Shown: positions 1 to 15,194 of the stretch, piece after piece | Layout of the letters: every line of letters begins with the position of its first letter | Numbering within the stretch: position 1 is the first letter of the stretch | Source: a virus | Direction: 5' to 3' (one strand) | DNA: 29,083 nt | IMG/VR virus record: IMGVR_UViG_3300022592_000023 | Location: 1 to 29,083 of that record | Made by a program: the position numbers and the translations under genes | Notes under the pieces: generated by a model | What the model was told of the DNA's origin: nothing | The model's input: only the letters and a program-made list of their open reading frames with translations | The model's database searches: none

Positions 1-3000
1 GTTTACAATAATACCAGTCAATGTATCAAACAATGTGTTCATTGTTGGAATTGCACTTGCACCGCCAGTCAACGCTAGTTGAGTAACTTGTGTAGTTGTA
101 TTTTGTAAAGCGTTTGCCAATGTGTTTGCAACAACTTTGTCAGCTAAGTTTGCAATAAATGTAATTGCTTGAGTTTCTTGTGCTGTTTGATCATTACCAG
201 TTGAATCAACAGCCGCACTAATGAATGACTGTCCTGGAGTAATAGGATCAGGAGCTGAAACAGAACTTAGAACTGTGTAGTAAGCATTACCTGCTACATA
301 GATTGTAAAGTATGTTGGGTTGTTAACGTCACCGCCGCCTGTTTGTAGAGCTTTACTTAATGTTAGACTTTGGAATCCAACGTCTGCAACTACAGTACCT
401 GTTGCACAATAGTATGTACCATCAATGTCAGTGTAGTTACCGTACTGGTCACGAACATAAACGTTTTGACCAATAACGATACCAGTGTTGTCAATGCCAT
501 GGATTGTTACAGTACCAGTTGTAATAGTTGATGTGTTTGGATTTGCGGCCAAGAAGCCTGGCAATCCTTGATTGTTTATGTACCCTTCTGGGGCAACAAC
601 TTCCATGATCTGACCAATGTGTGGACGATCATTAGGATCTGGACAGTAAACCTGAACAACCTGTTGACTTGGGTATACACCGTTTGGATAGTATGGAAGT
701 ACTGGTGGGTTATAAATTTCACCAAAGAAATCTAATCGACCATAACCTTTTGATACCAAGCAGTAGTCACCAAAGTTGGCGTTAGAGTTAGTAATAGAAC
801 AAATACCGCCGTTCTCTGTAATAACAGATGTTCCGCAGAAGATTGTAAACACAGAAACTAGCTGTGCATAGCCGTTGTTAGTAATCTTAATACCAACACC
901 ACCTTGGTTGATTTGCGTAAACGCATCGTAAACGAACGATTGAATTGGTGAACGATCACTAATTACAGCGCCGTCAACTAAGCTACCACCCATTGATCCA
1001 AATGGATCAATCTTACGTTGTGCCCATTCATCTGGGACATCTTTATCTTGTACAGGATAAACTGATGTTTGTCCAAAGTACATTGTGTAGTTTGTACCTG
1101 CGCCAACTGTATTTTGTGTTAGGCCAATGTTGTATGTGCCATCACCGTTGTCTGTTAGGCTTGCAATTACTGGGGCAATGTTAACGTTGTCAATAATTGG
1201 ATCAAAACGTACTGGGAAGAAACCAGAACCATCGTAACCATCTGGAGCCGCACTTGGACCATTAGCAATAATGTTGTTCATCATAGCTACTAGACTGTTA
1301 ATACGTGGAACAGCATAAATGCCACCGTCATAGAACGGATTAACAATTTGTTTAGCGTATGAGAATGTGTTGGTCATTGTAGTGTTTGACACTACATTTC
1401 CGGCAACTGTTGCTAGATAATTGTATGCCGCAGTAGTTTGTGTAATTTCACCTTGAATAACACTTACTGCACCTACCCAGTAGGTAACAGCGGCTTCAAT
1501 TGATTTGTGATTACCACCTAATAAAATATCTTGACTGATTGCGTCAACAATTAATCCAGTATCTCTATAGCATACTTCTTGATTGTAGTTAAAGCCGTTG
1601 CTATTGTATGTATAGTCAACCCATGCTGTCATTTCTTTTTGTAAGAAAGCACGGTTCGCTTCTAAAATAGCAAATGCACGTTGAATATTAATGTTAGGTG
1701 ACTTAGTTAAACTAATACTGTTTGGAGTACCAGCAACACTTGGGCCATTTGTAATAATATTTGTAATATTTGCAAAAATATTTTGTATTAAAGTTACTTC
1801 AGATGCACTTGCAACTGGTAATCCAGATACTGGTAGTAAAGGATTGCCAACTGTTGGGATTACTAACTGGCCTCTAATTAATAATTCTGCAACATCGCGT
1901 ACATGGTTAAATGCCGCAACTGTTTGAGTTTTCTGATTTGGAATCTGTGTTGTGCCACCAGTGTAGCTGTAATAGTAAACGCCTGACTGAACTGCTTGAC
2001 GATTACCGCCGTGCAATAAGTCAAACGCAACAGAATCAACCATGTATCCTGCATCACGGAAACATTTTGCCTTGTCATAAGTAAAGCCTACAGTCTTGTT
2101 AGCTTCAACCCATGCAACTGTTTCTGCTTGTAGATATTGTCTGTTAGCAACTAACAATGCGTAGGCGTTGTTAATAGTAATATCAGTTAGTGCAGAGCCA
2201 TTAGGAATAATACCATCAGTGATTGGTAATCCTGTTACAGTATAGTTGTTAATAACTTCTACAATAATATCAAAGTCTGCGCCAATTAATGTTACTTCAG
2301 CTTGTGTTCCTGGTGCGCCGGCAACAGTTGTTTGGCTGATGTTGTTTTGATAACGAGCACCACTTGTATCATTTAGAATAACTTTTTGTGCTAGGCTCTT
2401 TAGGTAACCAACGGCATTTGTAGTTGTCGACAACTCGCTACCAATTGATCCTGTGTAAGTACCCTGGCTCCAATATTGAACGCCGGCAAATGTTGACTGG
2501 CTGTATTGATTGCCAGGATATAACATATCAAATGCTACTGCATCAACAATTAAACCAGTATCGCGTTGGCATTTTGCACTATCGTACGGGAAGTCTAAGA
2601 AACTTTGATTAATGTAAGAAATAACTTCTTGCTGAATAAAGCTTCTGTTCAACTGTAATAATATTTCAGCACTCATAAACGCTGGGTCAACTGCACTACC
2701 GATATGGCTTTCTGGTGCGGCTGATGGGCCGTTCTGAATAATGTTTGTAATAATGTCTACGCCGTTGGCAAGTGCTGTGCTAGCAATGCCGCCACCAATT
2801 AACGCTGTGTTAATAACTTGTGCGTTAGTTGCTGTAACACCGATTAGATTTGGTGCTACTGTATTTGTAATAACATCTTGTGCTAAAGTATTGATGTAAT
2901 TAATTGCACCAATAGTCTGTGTTGTTTCACCTTGGATTACACTTGTAACACCACGGTAGTAACCTAAGCCAGACTCAACAGCTTTTGCATTACCGCCAAA

Positions 3001-6000
3001 GGAAATATCGTAGGCCAAGTTTTCAACAATAATGCCAACGTCACGACGGCACTTGGCTTGATCGTAAATGAAGTTTGGCATTGTATTGACATAGGCAATA
3101 ATTTCTGCTACAATAAAATCACGGTTAGCTTTCAATAGTGCATAGGCATTTGCTCTAGCAGTATCGCTTGAAGGAGTTAGGCTGATAGGAATCAGTGCAG
3201 GTGCTTCAGTAGGACCGTTACTGATAATACGTGTCATTAACTCAATGTCAGCTGTTAACTCTGCGGCAACTGCAATATTGCTCTTGGCATTTTCATTTAG
3301 TACCTGTGGAACTTCTGACTGATAGAAACTAGTCAACGCTTGACTTTGAACAACTGCACTAACCACTGTTGACAAATACTTGTATGCCATAACAGTTTGT
3401 GTTAGTTCATTTGGTACTTGAGTTTGTGTATTGCTGTAACCAAAGTATAGTGTACCAGCTTGAATAGCTTGACGGTTACCACCACGTAGTAAGTCAAATG
3501 ACACACAATCAATCATGTAGCCAATGTCGCGATAGCACTTGGCTTGATCGTATTCAAACGCTGTACCGTATTGTGCGTTAACATAAGCAACAACTTCGTT
3601 CGCAATAAACGTACGGTTAGCCATCAAGTAGTTAAATGCTTTTTGTGCATTTACATCTGAGCTAATAGTTAAGCTAATTGGAGTTGGAGTTGCGGCCGCA
3701 CTTGGTCCAATGTTAATAATGTTTGTGATCTTATCAACTTTAGATTGCAAGTTTGTAATTTGCAACTGACTTGAAATTGGTAATCCTAATTGCTGTGTGC
3801 TTGGGTTACCAGGTGATTTATTAATTGCCTGTCCTAATAAGATTGGACCAATGATTGCTTTAATTCTGTTGTATGCCGCAATAGTATTAGCCTGTTCGCC
3901 AGGAATAGCACTTGCAGTACTAGAGAAGCCATAGTAGTAAACACCTGACTGAATAGCTTGACGATTACCGCCGTGTAGTATATCAAATGCAATACTATCA
4001 ACAATATATCCAGTGTCACGGAAGCACTTGTCTTCGTTGTATGAGAATACATTATACTTTTGATTAATATAAGCTGTTAGTTCTGCTTTAATAAAATCTT
4101 TATTTGCTTCTAGTAGTTGAACAGCATTGTATACGCTAGCATTACTACTTGGTACTAACGGAATTGATGTTGGAGCACTAGCTACCAACGGGCCGTTTGC
4201 AATAATGTTTTTAATTACAGAAACATTGTTTTGTAGTGTTGTAACTTCTGCATTTGTTGCGCCTGGCAAGTTTGAAACTTGAGTAACGTCTGTTTGGTAT
4301 GGAATGACAGGAGTTGCTGTTATGATACTGCCAACAAGAGTGCTTAGATATGTATAAGCATCAAGTACTTGTGTAGTTTCGTTTGGAATAGCACTTGAAC
4401 TATTGCTATAACCATAATAGTAAACACCTGATTGAACTGCTTGGCGATTGCCTCCCCACTTCAAGTCAAATGCAACTGAGTCTACCATAAAGCCAACATC
4501 ACGAGCACACTTAGTTTGATTATAAGTAAAGCCACTTGTCTTAGTTGCTTCAACGAACGCAACAGCTTCTGCTTCTAAGTATGTCTTGTTAGCTTCCAAT
4601 AGTGCATAGGCATTTAATACTCTAGCAGTAGTTGAAGGAGTTATTCCATTTGGAATAATCTTATCACTAATACCAACTGTACCTGTGCTTAGAATATTTA
4701 AAATAGTTGCAAACTCATTTGCAATTACTGCCGCTTCGGCCGCTGTACCAGGAGCACTTAAATTTGTTACTTGTGTTGATGTTGTGTAACGAATACCAGT
4801 TGTATCGTTTAGAACAATACGTTGTGCCAATGTAGCTACGTAACTAATGGCCGCTGTGGTAGTATTAATTTCACTAGGAATTGCACCGACTAGGCTTGTA
4901 TGATTCCAATACTGGATACCTGCAAATGTTGTTTGGCTTGTACCACCAAAGTATAAGTCTTGTGCTAATGCATCAACAATTAAACCTGTGTCACGTTTGC
5001 ACTTGGCTTCGTTATAGGTAAATGTGTTTGATGAGTAAGTTGCGTCAATGAACGCTGTAACTTCTTGTGCAATAAATTCTCTATTAGAATGTAATAGAGT
5101 AGCCGCATTGATTACGTTTGGATTTGTACTGCGTGTTAATCCAATTGGAACTTCGGCAGGCGCCTGACTTGGGCCGCTTTGGATAATATTTTCAAGAGTA
5201 TCAACTAGAGCCTGTACATAAGTTACTTCAGAGTTAGAACCGCCTAGACCAGAAGTAGTTTGTGCTTCCCATGTTTGATAAGGACTAGTTGAGAATCCTT
5301 GAATAACACTTGGAAGAATATTTTTAATATGTGTGTAGGCCGCAAGTACTTGTGCTGATTCACCAGGAATAGCAGTAGTGCCGTTAAAGTTATAGTAGTA
5401 AACACCTGACTGAACTGCTTGACGATTACCGCCATACAACAAGTCAAATGACACAGAGTCAACCATGTAACCAATATCACGCTGGCATTTAGTACCATTG
5501 TAGGTAAAGCCACTAGTCTTAGTTGCTTCAACATAGGCAACACCTTCAGCAATCAAATAGGCTTTGTTTGCCTGTAGAATATTATAGGAATTTGTTATGT
5601 TGTTATTGCCACTTGCTGTAATTCCGTTAGGAACAATTCTATCAGTTACGTCTTTAGTGCCGTTGGTTATAATATCAACAATCAATGCGAAGTCTGTACC
5701 AATTGCAGATTTCTCAGATGTTGTGCCCGGAGTAAAGCTGACGTTTTGTGTAACAGTCGATTGATAACGAACACCTGTTTGGTCGTTTAGAATAACTTTT
5801 TGTGCTAGACTAGAAACATAGTTAATTGCGTTTGTAGTTGTTGACAACTCACCTGCAATAGAACCAGTATAGCCTGCTTGATTCCAATAGCTCAAACCTG
5901 AAAATACTGTTTGGCTAGAACCTTGGAATAATAAATCTTGTACAAGCGCATCAACAATTAATCGTGTATCACGTTCGCACTTGGCGTGGTTGTATGGGAA

Positions 6001-9000
6001 TGTACCGCGAATAGCATCAACATAAGCAACAGTTTCTGCTTGGATGTAAGTGCGGTTAGCATTTAAAATATTGTAAGCGTGTAGAATACTTGCAGTTGAA
6101 CTTGCAGTGGTATTAGGAACAATCTTATCTGTTACACCAACTGTACCTTTGTTAAGGATGTCAAGGACAACACCAAAGTCGCTAGCAACTAGGCCAACTT
6201 CAGCTGTTGTTGCGGCTGGTAATGTTGTTACCTGTGTAACTGTGCTTTGATATCTTGCACCAGCTGTTGAGTTTGTAACAAGTTTCTGTGCAAGTTTGCT
6301 TGCAAATAAGACAGCGTTAGTTGCTGTGATAATTTCATTACCAATTGGCTTAACGTAGTCGCCTTGGTTCCAATATTGTAAACCAGCAAATGTTGATTGA
6401 CTGTCTGTAGCTGTTGGATACAATAGGTCAAATGCAAGTGCATCAATAATCAATCCTGTATCACGTAGACATTTTGCCTGATCATAAATTGCGTACTGTG
6501 CGTTTATGTATGCGATTGTTTCTGCACGAATGAAACTACGGTTAGCTTCTAACAATGCCGCGGCATTTAATATGTTAGCATTTCCGCTCTTAGTTTGTGG
6601 AATGCTTGTTGGACTTGCGGCAGATGTAGGTCCGTTGTTAATAATTGTAGTAATAACATCTAGTTTACTTTGTAGTGTTGTTACTTCAGATGCAGTAGCA
6701 GGAGTTAAATTTGTTACTTGTGGAACTGCATATTGATAAGTTACAGATAGCGGACTACCTGCTACAATGTCGGCAATGATACTTCTAATATGAGTATATG
6801 CATTTAGAGTTTGTGCTTTTTCACCTGGAATAGCACTTGAAGTGTTTGAATAACCGTAGTAGTAAACACCTGACTGAACTGCTTGACGATTACCGCCATA
6901 TAGTAAGTCAAATGCAACCGAGTCAACCATGTAGCCAACATCACGAGCGCACTTAACACCATCGTATGTGAACCCAACAGTCTTAGTAGCTTCAACAAAA
7001 GCAATAGCTTCTGCTTGCAAATAAGTTTTGTTAGATTCTAATAGTGCGTAAGCGTGTTGAACATTTACGTCTGCACTAGCGTTGATGCTGTTAGGAACAA
7101 TAATATCTGTTACACCGACTGTACCGTTGTTGATAATATTTAAAATTACATCAAACTCTGCGCCAACAGTTGCGGCTTCTGCAACAGTACCAGGGGTTGG
7201 ACTTGTAATTTGAGGAGCACTATTTTGATAGCGTGTTCCTGTTAGATCGTTCTTAACAACTCGCTGTGCTAGATCTTTAATGTAGCTGATAGCCGCAGTT
7301 GTTGTACTTAACTCATTGGCAAATGTGTTAACGTACCCTGCTTGATTCCAATACTGGATACCTGCAAATGTTGATTGGCTTGTGCCACCAAATAACATAT
7401 CTTGTACAATAGCATCAACAATTAAACCGGTGTCACGTGAACACTTAGCTTGGTTGTAAGTAAATCCAATAGTCTTATTAGCTTCAACCCAAGCAATGGC
7501 TTCTGCTTGTAAGAATGCTTTGTTCGATTGTAATGCTTGGTAAGCATTTAATGTGTGAGTAGCAGTAGTAATGCTACCGTTAGCGATAATTTTATCAGTA
7601 ACCGCAGTTGTACCTGTTGTTATGATATCTGTAATAACTTTGAAATCTTTTTGTACTGTTGTAACGTCTGCAGAGTTACCAACATTAGTTACTACTGTTT
7701 GAGTAACTGTATTTTGATATGTAAATGGTACTGCTTGACCTAAAATAATTGCAGATGTTAAACTTGAAATCCATTGAACAGCCGCTGTGGTAGTTGATAC
7801 TTCACCACCAATTGCGCCAACGTATCCTGTTTGGTTCCAATATTGTAAACCTGAGAATACTGTTTGACTTGTACCTGCATATAGAGCATCAAGTGCTAGG
7901 CCGTCAATAATTAAGCCAGTGTCGCGTGAACATTTTGTAGCGTTGTACTGGAATGGGCCGCCGTATTCTTGATTGGTCCAAGCAACAACCTGTTCTTGAA
8001 TAAATGCTTCGTTGGCAAGTAATAATGTACGTGCCGCAAAGTATCCTTCATCTTGAGGACCTGAGTTAACTGCTTGACCAACATATAGAGTACCTGTTGT
8101 AAGGCTAACTGTAATTGTATTTGTGTTTGCTACATAACTTGCAACGCCAACAGCTTCAGGAACTTGAACTGTTTGGTTAGGAATAAACATTGTACCGTCA
8201 TACAACCAAGGACCAGATTGATTACTTACGTTCTGAATGTATGGTGAGTGGTATAGGTCAATGATTTGTGTATTTGGAAACGCTGTTGCGTATGCTCCGC
8301 GATTGTTACCAATCTTGTATCCGTATTCGCTTACACCAAAGCCACCTGGAATTAAACCAGAACGACCATTTAACAAACGCATCTGTGCAACATAGCAACC
8401 AGATTGAACGTGGAACAAGTCGCGAGTTTTGTTAATTGGCTCAACGTCTGTTGTACGTAAGTCACTACCAATTACAGATGTATAAGGTTTTAATTCAATT
8501 GGGTTGTCTTCTAAATAACGACCAGGAGCAACTTTAATACTTGTACCTGACTGATAGTAAGGACTCTTTGTTGCACCGCTAATTGTACGGCAAGCACGAC
8601 TTGGGTCAGCCGCACGTCCGTCATTGGTATCGCTACCGTCCATAGAAACGTATAATACGTTTGAAGTAACAGGTGCTGTACCTAATGGGTTAGTACCCAA
8701 TACTCGAATGTTTGAATTAACATTGGTAACACCGTTGCCTGTTGGGCTAATGTTAATATCTGTGTTTGGTGTTGTAGGAGTTATTGTATTGCCTGCAAAA
8801 CCTAATCCGCCTGCTACAATACTATTAAAATAACCGTGTGCCCAGTTAGATGTTGTACTACCAATGTCGTATGTATTATTCACTTTAGGAATAATACTGC
8901 TGACTAATTCGGCTCCAAGTGCCAAGGTATCGACTAGTTGATTGCTACCTAAGATAATATTGCCATCGGCTGTAATGTTGCCAATTGCATGTAGGTTACC

Positions 9001-9324
9001 GCCGATTGTAGTGTTTGTGCCAACGAATACTGTTTGATTCGTAGCTGGGGTAATATTTAAAGGACCACTGATTGTGCTAATAGTAGCACTATTCACTGAT
9101 CGAGAAATTTGTAAGAGACCTAATGTTGAAGTTGTATCAACTATTAGTTTATTTGCGTGTAGAGTTCCGTTTACGTCTAGGTCATATGCTGGTGATTGAG
9201 TCTTAACACCAATGCGTCCATTAGTAACGTCTAGATAAAGTAATCCACTTTCGACTTGTAAGTCTATGCCGTCACGTAGCAAATTGCTTGCAAGTAACGG
9301 ACCTGTAATGCGACCTATGGCCAT
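1..9324 (-). CDS. Giant tail-fibre-like virion protein with split beta-helix-type domain and 14 tandem repeats (partial, 3' end off the window)
   Basis: One open frame runs from an ATG at 9324 (good ribosome site AAGGAG about 10 bases upstream) to the left edge, 3108 codons with no stop found; I checked the frame at each repeat and scanned much of it triplet by triplet. Residues 1-220 carry fibre-type motifs (RIGVKTQSPAYDLDVNGT; YDIGSTTSNWAHGYF). Residues from about 224 (LYVSMDGSDTNDGR) to about 420 look like the start of a pectate-lyase-like right-handed beta-helix. Fourteen units of about 163 residues follow (about 424-2690). A second beta-helix-like stretch starts near 2791 (RSPIQSFVYDAFTQINQGG, then YAQLVSVFTIFC, CSITNSNANFG). 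From about 3034 the sequence again resembles the linker half of a repeat. I recall similar motifs in cyanophage T4-like virion proteins, so a tail-fibre or baseplate-associated adhesin is likely; receptor or enzyme activity is not shown. The C-terminus is missing. Confidence 0.9.
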   Translation of the reverse strand, partial: MAIGRITGPLLASNLLRDGIDLQVESGLLYLDVTNGRIGVKTQSPAYDLDVNGTLHANKLIVDTTSTLGLLQISRSVNSATISTISGPLNITPATNQTVFVGTNTTIGGNLHAIGNITADGNIILGSNQLVDTLALGAELVSSIIPKVNNTYDIGSTTSNWAHGYFNSIVAGGLGFAGNTITPTTPNTDINISPTGNGVTNVNSNIRVLGTNPLGTAPVTSNVLYVSMDGSDTNDGRAADPSRACRTISGATKSPYYQSGTSIKVAPGRYLEDNPIELKPYTSVIGSDLRTTDVEPINKTRDLFHVQSGCYVAQMRLLNGRSGLIPGGFGVSEYGYKIGNNRGAYATAFPNTQIIDLYHSPYIQNVSNQSGPWLYDGTMFIPNQTVQVPEAVGVASYVANTNTITVSLTTGTLYVGQAVNSGPQDEGYFAARTLLLANEAFIQEQVVAWTNQEYGGPFQYNATKCSRDTGLIIDGLALDALYAGTSQTVFSGLQYWNQTGYVGAIGGEVSTTTAAVQWISSLTSAIILGQAVPFTYQNTVTQTVVTNVGNSADVTTVQKDFKVITDIITTGTTAVTDKIIANGSITTATHTLNAYQALQSNKAFLQAEAIAWVEANKTIGFTYNQAKCSRDTGLIVDAIVQDMLFGGTSQSTFAGIQYWNQAGYVNTFANELSTTTAAISYIKDLAQRVVKNDLTGTRYQNSAPQITSPTPGTVAEAATVGAEFDVILNIINNGTVGVTDIIVPNSINASADVNVQHAYALLESNKTYLQAEAIAFVEATKTVGFTYDGVKCARDVGYMVDSVAFDLLYGGNRQAVQSGVYYYGYSNTSSAIPGEKAQTLNAYTHIRSIIADIVAGSPLSVTYQYAVPQVTNLTPATASEVTTLQSKLDVITTIINNGPTSAASPTSIPQTKSGNANILNAAALLEANRSFIRAETIAYINAQYAIYDQAKCLRDTGLIIDALAFDLLYPTATDSQSTFAGLQYWNQGDYVKPIGNEIITATNAVLFASKLAQKLVTNSTAGARYQSTVTQVTTLPAATTAEVGLVASDFGVVLDILNKGTVGVTDKIVPNTTASSTASILHAYNILNANRTYIQAETVAYVDAIRGTFPYNHAKCERDTRLIVDALVQDLLFQGSSQTVFSGLSYWNQAGYTGSIAGELSTTTNAINYVSSLAQKVILNDQTGVRYQSTVTQNVSFTPGTTSEKSAIGTDFALIVDIITNGTKDVTDRIVPNGITASGNNNITNSYNILQANKAYLIAEGVAYVEATKTSGFTYNGTKCQRDIGYMVDSVSFDLLYGGNRQAVQSGVYYYNFNGTTAIPGESAQVLAAYTHIKNILPSVIQGFSTSPYQTWEAQTTSGLGGSNSEVTYVQALVDTLENIIQSGPSQAPAEVPIGLTRSTNPNVINAATLLHSNREFIAQEVTAFIDATYSSNTFTYNEAKCKRDTGLIVDALAQDLYFGGTSQTTFAGIQYWNHTSLVGAIPSEINTTTAAISYVATLAQRIVLNDTTGIRYTTSTQVTNLSAPGTAAEAAVIANEFATILNILSTGTVGISDKIIPNGITPSTTARVLNAYALLEANKTYLEAEAVAFVEATKTSGFTYNQTKCARDVGFMVDSVAFDLKWGGNRQAVQSGVYYYGYSNSSSAIPNETTQVLDAYTYLSTLVGSIITATPVIPYQTDVTQVSNLPGATNAEVTTLQNNVSVIKNIIANGPLVASAPTSIPLVPSSNASVYNAVQLLEANKDFIKAELTAYINQKYNVFSYNEDKCFRDTGYIVDSIAFDILHGGNRQAIQSGVYYYGFSSTASAIPGEQANTIAAYNRIKAIIGPILLGQAINKSPGNPSTQQLGLPISSQLQITNLQSKVDKITNIINIGPSAAATPTPISLTISSDVNAQKAFNYLMANRTFIANEVVAYVNAQYGTAFEYDQAKCYRDIGYMIDCVSFDLLRGGNRQAIQAGTLYFGYSNTQTQVPNELTQTVMAYKYLSTVVSAVVQSQALTSFYQSEVPQVLNENAKSNIAVAAELTADIELMTRIISNGPTEAPALIPISLTPSSDTARANAYALLKANRDFIVAEIIAYVNTMPNFIYDQAKCRRDVGIIVENLAYDISFGGNAKAVESGLGYYRGVTSVIQGETTQTIGAINYINTLAQDVITNTVAPNLIGVTATNAQVINTALIGGGIASTALANGVDIITNIIQNGPSAAPESHIGSAVDPAFMSAEILLQLNRSFIQQEVISYINQSFLDFPYDSAKCQRDTGLIVDAVAFDMLYPGNQYSQSTFAGVQYWSQGTYTGSIGSELSTTTNAVGYLKSLAQKVILNDTSGARYQNNISQTTVAGAPGTQAEVTLIGADFDIIVEVINNYTVTGLPITDGIIPNGSALTDITINNAYALLVANRQYLQAETVAWVEANKTVGFTYDKAKCFRDAGYMVDSVAFDLLHGGNRQAVQSGVYYYSYTGGTTQIPNQKTQTVAAFNHVRDVAELLIRGQLVIPTVGNPLLPVSGLPVASASEVTLIQNIFANITNIITNGPSVAGTPNSISLTKSPNINIQRAFAILEANRAFLQKEMTAWVDYTYNSNGFNYNQEVCYRDTGLIVDAISQDILLGGNHKSIEAAVTYWVGAVSVIQGEITQTTAAYNYLATVAGNVVSNTTMTNTFSYAKQIVNPFYDGGIYAVPRINSLVAMMNNIIANGPSAAPDGYDGSGFFPVRFDPIIDNVNIAPVIASLTDNGDGTYNIGLTQNTVGAGTNYTMYFGQTSVYPVQDKDVPDEWAQRKIDPFGSMGGSLVDGAVISDRSPIQSFVYDAFTQINQGGVGIKITNNGYAQLVSVFTIFCGTSVITENGGICSITNSNANFGDYCLVSKGYGRLDFFGEIYNPPVLPYYPNGVYPSQQVVQVYCPDPNDRPHIGQIMEVVAPEGYINNQGLPGFLAANPNTSTITTGTVTIHGIDNTGIVIGQNVYVRDQYGNYTDIDGTYYCATGTVVADVGFQSLTLSKALQTGGGDVNNPTYFTIYVAGNAYYTVLSSVSAPDPITPGQSFISAAVDSTGNDQTAQETQAITFIANLADKVVANTLANALQNTTTQVTQLALTGGASAIPTMNTLFDTLTGIIVN
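1400..8060 (-). repeat. Array of 14 tandem protein-coding repeats, period about 489 bp (163 residues)
   Basis: I anchored each unit on the Cys codon of a C-x-R-D-x-G-x-(I/M)-(V/I)-(D/E) motif. The anchors lie at plus positions 7932, 7443, 6951, 6471, 5979, 5487, 5001, 4509, 4026, 3537, 3051, 2571, 2064 and 1572. Spacings are 480-507 bp, always a multiple of three, mean 489. Two main kinds occur: type A continues as DLLFGG...STFAGxQYWNQ, type B as FDLLYGGNRQAVQSGVYYY. Reading from the N-terminus the order is A A B A A B A B B B, a divergent unit, A, B, and a second divergent unit. Each unit also has a helical-looking stretch (LLEANKxFIxAEAxAxVxA) before the anchor and a linker after it. Segments of different B units remain nearly identical in DNA (for example around 5400-5440, 6855-6895 and 1975-2010). 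Confidence 0.92.
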
Positions 9325-13306: not shown

Positions 13307-13948
13307 ATGAGCTTTGAATTTAATTTTACCCCTAGCAAGTTACAAGAATGCCTAAGTCGCAATCAAGAGATTGCCGAATGGTATCCTTTGCTTGCGGCAA
13401 CATTACCTCAATTTGGTATTACATCAATACAGCGTGTAGCGGCCTTCTTGGCTCAATGTGCTCATGAAAGTATGGACTTTACAGTTGTTCATGAGAACTT
13501 AAACTATAAAGCAGAAACGCTAAGCCGTGTATGGCCAAGACTGTTTCCTGCAGATGTAGCGCAACAATACGCACACAACCCGGAAGCTATTGCTAATCGT
13601 GCCTACGGTGGACGTATGGGCAATGGTCCTGAAGCAAGCGGTGACGGATATCGTTTCCGCGGACGTGGTATTGTACAAATCACTGGCAAAGACAACTATC
13701 GTCAATGCTCACATGATCTATATCAAAATGATTCTTTGTTAGAAAATCCTGATTGGTTTGAAACTAAGGAAGGTGCATTATGGAGTGCTTGCTGGTTCTG
13801 GCACAAAAATAATCTTAATCCGTTAGCAGATCAAGAAGACTTAGAAACAATGACAAAACGTATTAACGGTGGTACACTAGGTATGAAAGAACGTATCGAT
13901 CACTTTAATAATTTCTGTGATATTTTAGCCGACGATAGTCAAGGTTAA
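13307..13948 (+). CDS. GH19 chitinase-type endolysin (cell wall lytic enzyme)
   Basis: The protein has 213 residues and one glycoside hydrolase family 19 domain, the fold of plant chitinases and many phage lysozymes that cut the sugar backbone of peptidoglycan. Family marks seen are AQCAHES (His53-Glu54, the likely catalytic acid), HENLNYKAE (Glu63/Glu70), NRAYGGRMGN (about 96-105) and RFRGRGIVQITGKDNY (about 116-131), then a Trp-rich ASCWFWH-type segment. There is no signal peptide or transmembrane anchor, so a holin elsewhere would be needed to reach the wall. It is the only gene in this region on the plus strand, with its own late promoter, a strong AAGGAGAG site and a terminator, as expected for late lysis. 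The domain type fits a Gram-negative host. Confidence 0.93.
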   Translation: MSFEFNFTPSKLQECLSRNQEIAEWYPLLAATLPQFGITSIQRVAAFLAQCAHESMDFTVVHENLNYKAETLSRVWPRLFPADVAQQYAHNPEAIANRAYGGRMGNGPEASGDGYRFRGRGIVQITGKDNYRQCSHDLYQNDSLLENPDWFETKEGALWSACWFWHKNNLNPLADQEDLETMTKRINGGTLGMKERIDHFNNFCDILADDSQG

Positions 13949-14015: not shown

Positions 14016-15194
14016 TTAACTGAAACTTACGTTTGCAGAAACAATAGCCACCTTACCTAGGTAGTCAGCGGCGTTGCCTAAGCTAGACGCTGTGTTTGTC
14101 AACTCAACATAGCCGTAGCGTGTTAAGAAGCCAACTACTGGTTCGAATGTGTTTGGATCTAGAACAACACCAGAACTCATTAGAGGAATATATGGGCAAT
14201 AGAACGCTGGAGCGTCTGCTTCTGAAGCACCCTTATAACCAATAAGAACTTGGTCGTTGTCACGGCCTGTATCAGGCATGTAGCTGTTTACATAGATACG
14301 CATTGCGTTGTTCAATGTACCAACAAACTTAGTGTTTGTAGGTGCTTCGAATGTACCTTCTGTAGTACGTGCAAAAGCTGATGTAGTTGCTGATTGAAGA
14401 ATTGTAAGAGCTTGGTTACTTACAACTGCCCAGTTAGCCGCACCACGACGTGTACGCTGAGCGATCAAGTTTGCAACACGGTTGATTTGGATTGCCAATG
14501 CGGCATGCTCGTCACCAACGAATGTAGCTGTACCAGAAACTAATGACTGGTCATAAGTTTGTTCAACAGTTGCTAAACCACTTAATGAAGCTAGGATTTC
14601 TTGGTCTATTTCAGCTGTAATTTCTTGAGCTAAAGCGGCCATGATTTCTGCTTCGATGTCAATACCTTGTTGTGCTTGAGCATCTTGAGCGGCTTCGAAT
14701 GTCCAACGAGCTGATAGCTTGCGTGACTTAGCTTCGACTGGTGCCTTCAAGATTTGAATGCTCATACGCTTACCAGGTGTACCTTCCATTGCGGCTGTTG
14801 TGTTAGCCTTTGGAGTTGCATCAGTATTGTTACCACTGTAAGCGGCCGCAATCTTGAATGGGCTTAATGCCTCTTCACCTGCTACAACTTGGTCACCGTT
14901 GTCTGCGTAACGTACACGTAGAGTATGGATTTGACCAACTGGACCTGTCATTGGCTGAACGCCGATGATTTCGTTCGCAATAACTGTCGGCATAACACGA
15001 CGGATTACTGGAAGAATAACACGGTTAAGTGTTGCAATGTTACCTGCGGATGTTGCACCAGCAGTTGCGCTTTCAGCCAAGTACTTGCGAGTATTTTCTA
15101 AGCAAACTGCCATAGAAGACTTGCGGTTACCTTGTAGGCCTTCAAGCAGAGCTTCTTTGGTCTCTGACCATCTTTCATTTAATAATTGTGACAT
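14016..15194 (-). CDS. 23: Major capsid protein, gp23-like
   Basis: At 392 residues this is the shell subunit of the T4-type head. The N-terminal part is a helical prohead peptide (SQLLNERWSETKEALLEGL) that ends at L39-A40-E41, a fitting (L/I)-x-E site for the gp21 protease; the mature chain would start at Ser42. Then come RVILPVIRRVMPTVIANEIIGVQPMTGP-type sequence (about 59-86), typical of gp23, the RYADNG segment, the long helix region AEIMAALAQEITAEIDQEIL (about 181-201), and C-terminal QVLIGYKGA and FYCPYIPLM stretches. T4 gp23 has 521 residues, so this is a short version, probably with a reduced insertion domain. The gene is last in the order 20-core-21-22-23, with AAGGAGA ahead of the ATG and a strong terminator behind. 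Confidence 0.95.
   Translation of the reverse strand: MSQLLNERWSETKEALLEGLQGNRKSSMAVCLENTRKYLAESATAGATSAGNIATLNRVILPVIRRVMPTVIANEIIGVQPMTGPVGQIHTLRVRYADNGDQVVAGEEALSPFKIAAAYSGNNTDATPKANTTAAMEGTPGKRMSIQILKAPVEAKSRKLSARWTFEAAQDAQAQQGIDIEAEIMAALAQEITAEIDQEILASLSGLATVEQTYDQSLVSGTATFVGDEHAALAIQINRVANLIAQRTRRGAANWAVVSNQALTILQSATTSAFARTTEGTFEAPTNTKFVGTLNNAMRIYVNSYMPDTGRDNDQVLIGYKGASEADAPAFYCPYIPLMSSGVVLDPNTFEPVVGFLTRYGYVELTNTASSLGNAADYLGKVAIVSANVSFS

Follow-up and report, generated by a model that had tools for sequence, protein, structure and literature searches.

Locus and Giant Tail-Fiber-Type ORF

The subject of this analysis is a giant open reading frame (ORF) on the minus strand of IMG/VR virus record IMGVR_UViG_3300022592_000023, the whole 29,083-base stretch of which is hereafter referred to as the window; residue numbers given below are those of this ORF. 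It is predicted to encode a tail-fiber-type protein, in which a beta-helix domain is interrupted by 14 tandem, mainly helical units (Table 1). The ATG at position 9324 is the likely start codon, with AAGGAG found 9 bases before it, and no stop codon is reached at the window edge (base 1). The complete frames of two near relatives, L217 and L218, which could be read to a stop codon, comprise 4265 and 4262 amino acids (aa); therefore, with a length of about 4260 aa in complete relatives, the window holds roughly three quarters of the protein.

The phmmer searches revealed that the N-terminal region (residues 8–223) is common to the fiber genes of the relatives. Matches to the PHROG tail-fiber families 4527 and 5342 had E-values of 7.2 × 10−134 and 1 × 10−127 and covered 15 and 12 stretches, respectively, with the units themselves being part of the match. 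All of the named records matching the units are cyanophages, the genes matched in them mostly carry tail or structural protein annotations, and genes for a major head protein and a portal protein are found in the same window as the giant ORF. The original prediction, made from the DNA letters without database searches, had tied the units to fiber-type proteins, and both the tail-fiber PHROGs and the fiber-gene relatives bear this out. The possibility that the repeats are common single domains with no link to a fiber was rejected, as the units sit in fiber-type proteins.

Table 1. Features of the giant ORF and two neighboring genes in the window.
Feature	Position	Strand	Residues	Basis and remarks
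Giant tail-fiber-type ORF	1–9324	−	3108 aa	Likely start ATG at 9324; still open at the contig end
N-terminal region	8677–9324	−	8–223	phmmer matches in L001–L009, L013, L014 and others
Beta-helix domain, first part	8098–8676	−	224–416	Homologs, alignment
Unit 1	7618–8097	−	417–576	HMM
Unit 2	7129–7617	−		HMM
Unit 3	6637–7128	−		HMM
Unit 4	6151–6636	−		HMM
Unit 5	5665–6150	−		HMM
Unit 6	5179–5664	−		HMM
Unit 7	4690–5178	−		HMM
Unit 8	4201–4686	−		HMM; modeled together with unit 9
Unit 9	3712–4197	−		HMM; modeled together with unit 8
Unit 10	3223–3711	−		HMM
Unit 11	2734–3219	−		HMM
Unit 12	2248–2733	−		HMM
Unit 13	1750–2235	−		HMM
Unit 14	1267–1749	−		HMM
Beta-helix domain, second part	466–1065	−	2761–2960	Homologs, alignment
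Half unit, start of second array running off the contig	7–195	−		HMM; complete second array in L217 and L218
Major head protein gene	14016–15194	−
Class I chitinase-like (GH19) gene	13307–13948	+

Tandem Array of 14 Units

A hidden Markov model (HMM) of the unit detected 14 full-length units at residues 417–2693 (window positions 8097–1267, minus strand), each with an independent E-value of ≤1 × 10−56, which rules out a chance or low-complexity repeat. The 14 C-x-R-D motifs are located at residues 472–2592, at distances of 160–169 residues. Both the 14 tandem units of 163 residues and the regular spacing of 160–169 residues had been read from the sequence beforehand, and both stand; the accompanying claim that every unit keeps C-x-R-D-x-G is correct for 13 of the 14 units, unit 5 having CERDTR, which lacks the G. 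Protein identity between the units of the window protein ranges from 27% to 64%. In relatives L002–L005, the order of the 14 units is kept one-to-one, with 56–86% identity unit by unit. On these sequence grounds the array is old and diverged, and a recent expansion was ruled out by the age of the units and their orthology across relatives.

The unit HMM also detected a 15th, half unit (profile positions 101–163) at residues 3051–3113, after the second beta region. L217 and L218 have the same first array and then the second beta region, behind which comes another array, of roughly seven and a half units. The second arrays of L217 (residues 3060–4150), L016, L020, L023, L030, L032, and L035 start at profile position ~95–108 and end at ~99–107; thus, they begin with the second half of a unit and end with the first half, a phase shift of most of a unit that is consistent across relatives. 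In the arrays of L006, L008, L013, and L014, a unit is cut at profile position ~129, the next unit starts at ~49, and a fragment (positions 2–51) closes the array before the second beta part.

Beta-Helix Domain Interrupted at One Loop

The array is inserted at about residue 397–416, and the alignment places it in a loop of the window protein that is bordered by GPWLYDGTMFIPNQTVQ on one side and DVPDEWAQRKI..GGSLVDG on the other. Both flanks are contiguous, with no units between them, in the fibers of cyanophages P-SSM2, S-CAM9, B23, and SynMITS9220M01, in AG-345-O18, in L048–L051, and in paralogous genes of related phages. Contiguous flanks were observed in 20 ORFs, in which the gap between the two parts ranges from −4 to 54 residues. 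Because the homologs carry both parts contiguously, the flanks are, as judged from sequence, two parts of one pectate-lyase-like beta-helix domain. An array lying between two halves of a beta-helix-like domain had been proposed in the original prediction, which is confirmed by the contiguous homologs and the single loop, and the flanks, here bounded at residues 224–416 and about 2761–2960, agree with its description. The contiguous homologs also rule out that the flanks are two unrelated domains. In the phages L016, L027, L037, L038, L041, L042, and L046, a nearby fiber gene has an unbroken beta-helix, and another gene has a unit array and no beta-helix.

Searches of the window protein against Pfam gave no direct beta-helix match, PF00502 being the only family at E ≤ 0.1 for the whole protein, and the beta-helix assignment of the window flanks is made by homology, through the relatives. 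The joined, uninterrupted domain matched DUF1565 in 11 of 14 members (best E-value, 3.8 × 10−6). In PDB, the profile of the unbroken domain matched a xylosidase (E-value, 1.5 × 10−5), the phage tail fiber 9rkv, and pectate lyase. A model of the L016 protein with two units between the halves has strands in both halves, and most of both beta parts are confident, at a mean predicted local distance difference test (pLDDT) score of 72.8 overall. In a Foldseek search with this model, tail fiber 9rkv, a pectin methylesterase, and a protein of a Geobacillus phage ranked highest, and AlgE epimerases were also among the top hits (E-values, 0.004–0.1; low template modeling (TM) scores).

Structure and Packing of the Units

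AlphaFold modeling of window units 8 and 9 (132 sequences) resulted in a pLDDT of 93.5 and a predicted TM score (pTM) of 0.85, with five helices and one strand per unit; the units are thus mainly helical in the model. Among 822 distinct units, the most conserved positions are D74 (99.9%), Y90 (99.8%), D63 (99.5%), R62 (98.3%), C60 (97.2%), and N33 (96.2%). Position 107 covaries with C60, the substitutes of which are aromatic residues or serine, in keeping with a site buried in the core.

Direct-coupling analysis of 447 pairs of adjacent units revealed 14 position pairs above z 5, and an antiparallel ladder (109–48, 113–41, 114–37, and 121–29) connects helix four of unit n with helix one of unit n + 1. 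One pair exceeded z 5 in the control with units two apart, and none with shuffled partners. Mainly because of this covariation between adjacent units, it is probable from the sequences that the array forms a continuous alpha-solenoid rod. With regard to the features of alpha-solenoids, tandem helical units were found in the window protein, and regular packing of neighbors is seen by covariation only, against the n + 2 and shuffled controls.

Unit Number among Relatives and the Proposed Role of the Array

In total, 127 ORFs containing both beta-helix parts were found to carry 0 to 18 units at the same site by HMM count, a comparison that had been suggested at the outset as a check. The numbers between the halves are 0 (20 cases, ≤54 residues between the parts), 1, 2, 4, 5, 6, 7, 8, 10, 11, 12, 13, 14, and 18; the counts 7, 11, and 13 take in partial units, and some contigs appear twice among the 127 ORFs (two scans). 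A rule of even unit numbers was rejected, as 1 and 5 occur. Units are widespread, with at least 526 confirmed unit-family stretches in environmental viral contigs. Diverged cyanophage units in L054 (residue 242), L057 (residue 177), and L061 (residue 1103) have C-x-D-D in place of C-x-R-D, with the Cys and Asp kept.

The series of 0–18 units suggests that the array acts as a tunable spacer rod. In the reading that we consider reasonably probable as a whole, the giant gene would encode a tail-fiber-type virion protein of an uncultured T4-like phage, with a split beta-helix and a solenoid rod. A parallel beta-helix domain, unbroken in cyanophage fibers, would have gained a tandem array at one loop, and this array of 163-residue, mainly helical domains would have grown to 14 copies, which later diverged. 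Neighboring units would pack helix on helix into the continuous rod, a length-variable spacer or arm setting the reach of receptor-binding parts from the virion; some 2,280 residues of solenoid within the fiber protein would change this reach. Here, we infer the display on the virion as a fiber, the spacer role, and the physical length of the rod. With the remainder of the domain constant, the natural series at one site would permit comparisons of fiber length and reach between phages.

Several observations weigh against this reading. The C-terminus of the giant ORF lies beyond the contig, and the L016 model with the two halves reaches a mean pLDDT of only 72.8. Tandem sequences share ancestry, an effect on the covariation that the control lessens and does not remove. 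Furthermore, 15 ORFs have three or more units and neither beta-helix half, and the interruption would therefore be one use of a more general module.

The units may alternatively be receptor- or glycan-binding domains, repeated for avidity and not serving as a spacer. Their strong divergence at non-core positions (27–64% identity) around a near-invariant core of ~10 residues would fit a scaffold with variable surfaces, and the number of units differs among relatives. However, in the clade with 14 units these are conserved one-to-one in order and identity, with no unit-level turnover seen, the coevolution of the interfaces of adjacent units favors a rod, and the unit profile had no match to a known carbohydrate-binding family in PDB sequence and Pfam searches. 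Binding domains are thus considered rather unlikely, and the spacer rod is preferred.

For such a rod, two geometries are compatible with the data: a re-closed beta-helix with the rod looping out, or the two beta-helix parts located at the two rod ends. The latter, in which the array at present serves as an in-line shaft between two beta-helix segments that no longer form one domain, is a variant of the spacer-rod reading and not exclusive with it. A solenoid rod has widely separated ends, and the unconstrained range of unit numbers (1, 2, 4, 5, 6, 8, 10, 14, and 18) would be easier to accommodate in line than in a closed loop. On the other hand, the contiguous homologs indicate that the two parts were ancestrally one domain, both parts are still conserved, and inserts of one or two units would suit a re-closed fold, so that the in-line shaft is regarded as quite possible, though short of probable. 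Since both beta-helix parts stay conserved and the number of units changes freely between them, a closed ring appears less plausible from the sequences than either a projecting arm or an in-line shaft. The original prediction had the repeats interrupting a fold or forming a long arm; the interruption at one loop and, by covariation, a continuous rod are retained from it, and a projecting arm is one of the geometries that this rod may have. Its comparison with common T4-type fibers, next to which an arm of more than 2200 repeat residues would be long, is conjectural.

Resemblance of the Units to Phycobiliproteins

Phycobiliproteins came up in searches not aimed at them, namely those of PDB sequences and Pfam, and Foldseek searches with both models. 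In PDB, the best match of the 14-unit profile was phycocyanin alpha (E-value, 0.0015), and phycocyanins made up 10 of the 14 matches listed. In Pfam, 16 of 114 units matched PF00502 (best E-value, 2.1 × 10−4) and no other family was matched by more than a single unit, and deep profile–profile comparison with phycobiliproteins gave a probability of 88%. The unit and the phycobiliprotein are 163 and 162 residues long, respectively, the unit helix KCxRDIGY...GG aligns in register with phycocyanin alpha, and the bilin-attachment motif C-x-R-D is present in 792 of 822 units. With the two-unit model of L016, Foldseek found phycobiliproteins at target TM scores of 0.5–0.67, one of them with a root mean square deviation (rmsd) of 3.0 over 156 columns. 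These results raise the possibility that the units are phycobiliprotein-like domains, by shared ancestry or the same fold, and might bind bilin via the cysteine of C-x-R-D.

The controls point the other way. After masking of 10 motif columns, the probability fell to 0.8%, and block-shuffled profiles reached 89%; therefore, only the C-x-R-D motif, 10 columns wide, carries the sequence signal. With the broader profile A2, the match was weaker (E-value, 0.022), and the PF00502 score of the whole protein (18.6 bits) is below the Pfam gathering threshold of 22.2. In 43 of 43 phycobiliproteins, the Cys is followed by Arg at +9 and Tyr at +13, positions at which the units carry D/E and F/Q/Y, respectively. 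In 3% of units, F, Y, W, or S stands in place of the Cys itself, mostly with R-D intact. The high-confidence window model did not superpose on phycobiliproteins (TM, 0.14–0.35; rmsd, about 20); this negative is weak, as the fit of true viral homologs to the window two-unit model is poor as well. A search of eight cyanobacterial genomes with the unit profile gave one match (E-value, 0.745), inside a phycobilisome gene. As for bilin-related and photosynthesis genes, CpeT was found in none of 14 IMG/VR relatives, heme oxygenase had no match in 13 of 14, and psbA was absent from all 22 relatives' records tested.

Taken together, the motif-mask, block-shuffle, and conservation controls and the survey of bilin genes do not support membership of the phycobiliproteins. 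The broader proposal of phycobiliprotein-like domains, whether by descent or by fold, seems distinctly unlikely, and what is left is a resemblance at the level of the motif, to which a relation in fold may be added. It may be speculated that helix swapping, with the first helix packing on the neighboring unit, would reconcile the split fold evidence. A rod of phycobiliprotein-like domains, captured from cyanobacterial antenna proteins or of common descent with them, in which the first helix would be swapped to the next unit and the domains would thereby polymerize into a solenoid, with some fibers perhaps still binding bilin at C-x-R-D, is regarded as highly improbable. If true, bilin-binding fibers would be an unexpected substrate for the phage-encoded bilin genes of cyanophages; were the resemblance real, phage fibers would be linked to antenna proteins, and the role of these genes would become directly testable.

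Two further observations were made on bilin-related genes. The 230 kb unit-bearing viral contig of L214 (G014), which has no psbA or CpeT, contains a heme-oxygenase-like sequence at 47416–47790 (E-value, 1.8 × 10−12). In L061 (ACG-2014h), a CpeT gene adjoining two 2OG-Fe(II) oxygenases lies ~2 kb upstream of an 11 kb unit-bearing fiber gene.

Neighboring Genes

The major head protein is 68–70% identical to those of GAP32/CBB-type large phages, Sinorhizobium phage Phosso, and Vibrio phage 2.275.O. The head protein is closest to GAP32/CBB-type large phages, whereas the fiber resembles those of cyanophages. The GH19 gene, probably coding for a lysin, runs opposite to the minus-strand virion genes that flank it.

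Comparison with Known Systems

No account of the units, of interrupted beta-helix fibers, or of phycobiliprotein-like fiber domains was found in the literature searched. Tail-fiber proteins of this general kind are already known, as the named PHROG families; the new element would be a helical rod of variable length, set within a defined beta-helix domain. Fiber or structural proteins of cyanophages (Kyanoviridae and allies), e.g., P-SSM2 PSSM2_293, S-CAM9 gp224, S-SKS1, S-SCSM1, and ACG-2014h gp26, have the same beta-helix domain, and related units, often with the Cys motif, occur in S-SKS1, S-SCSM1, B23, and ACG-2014h. However, these proteins have zero to two recognizable units at the site, or units elsewhere, and none of those examined has an array as long there.

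The uninterrupted relatives of the flanks match DUF1565 and the pectate-lyase-like right-handed beta-helix families (PF07602, PF12708), as well as beta-helices in PDB. Unlike DUF1565-type domains, the window domain, known here by sequence, is split by about 2340 residues. The units resemble phycocyanin alpha (PF00502) in the K-C-x-R-D helix, the Gly at +18, the length of about 163 residues, and, in one model, the fold; they differ from it in falling below the Pfam cut-off, in the loss of Arg +9 and Tyr +13, in a signal confined to the motif, and in that most relatives have no bilin genes. The long tail fiber of T4 (gp34–gp37), the fold of which is beta-structure, would by analogy share the proposed role of an extended spacer carrying receptor-binding parts, whereas the window protein matches no T4 fiber Pfam family and would consist of helical solenoid repeats in place of beta-structure.

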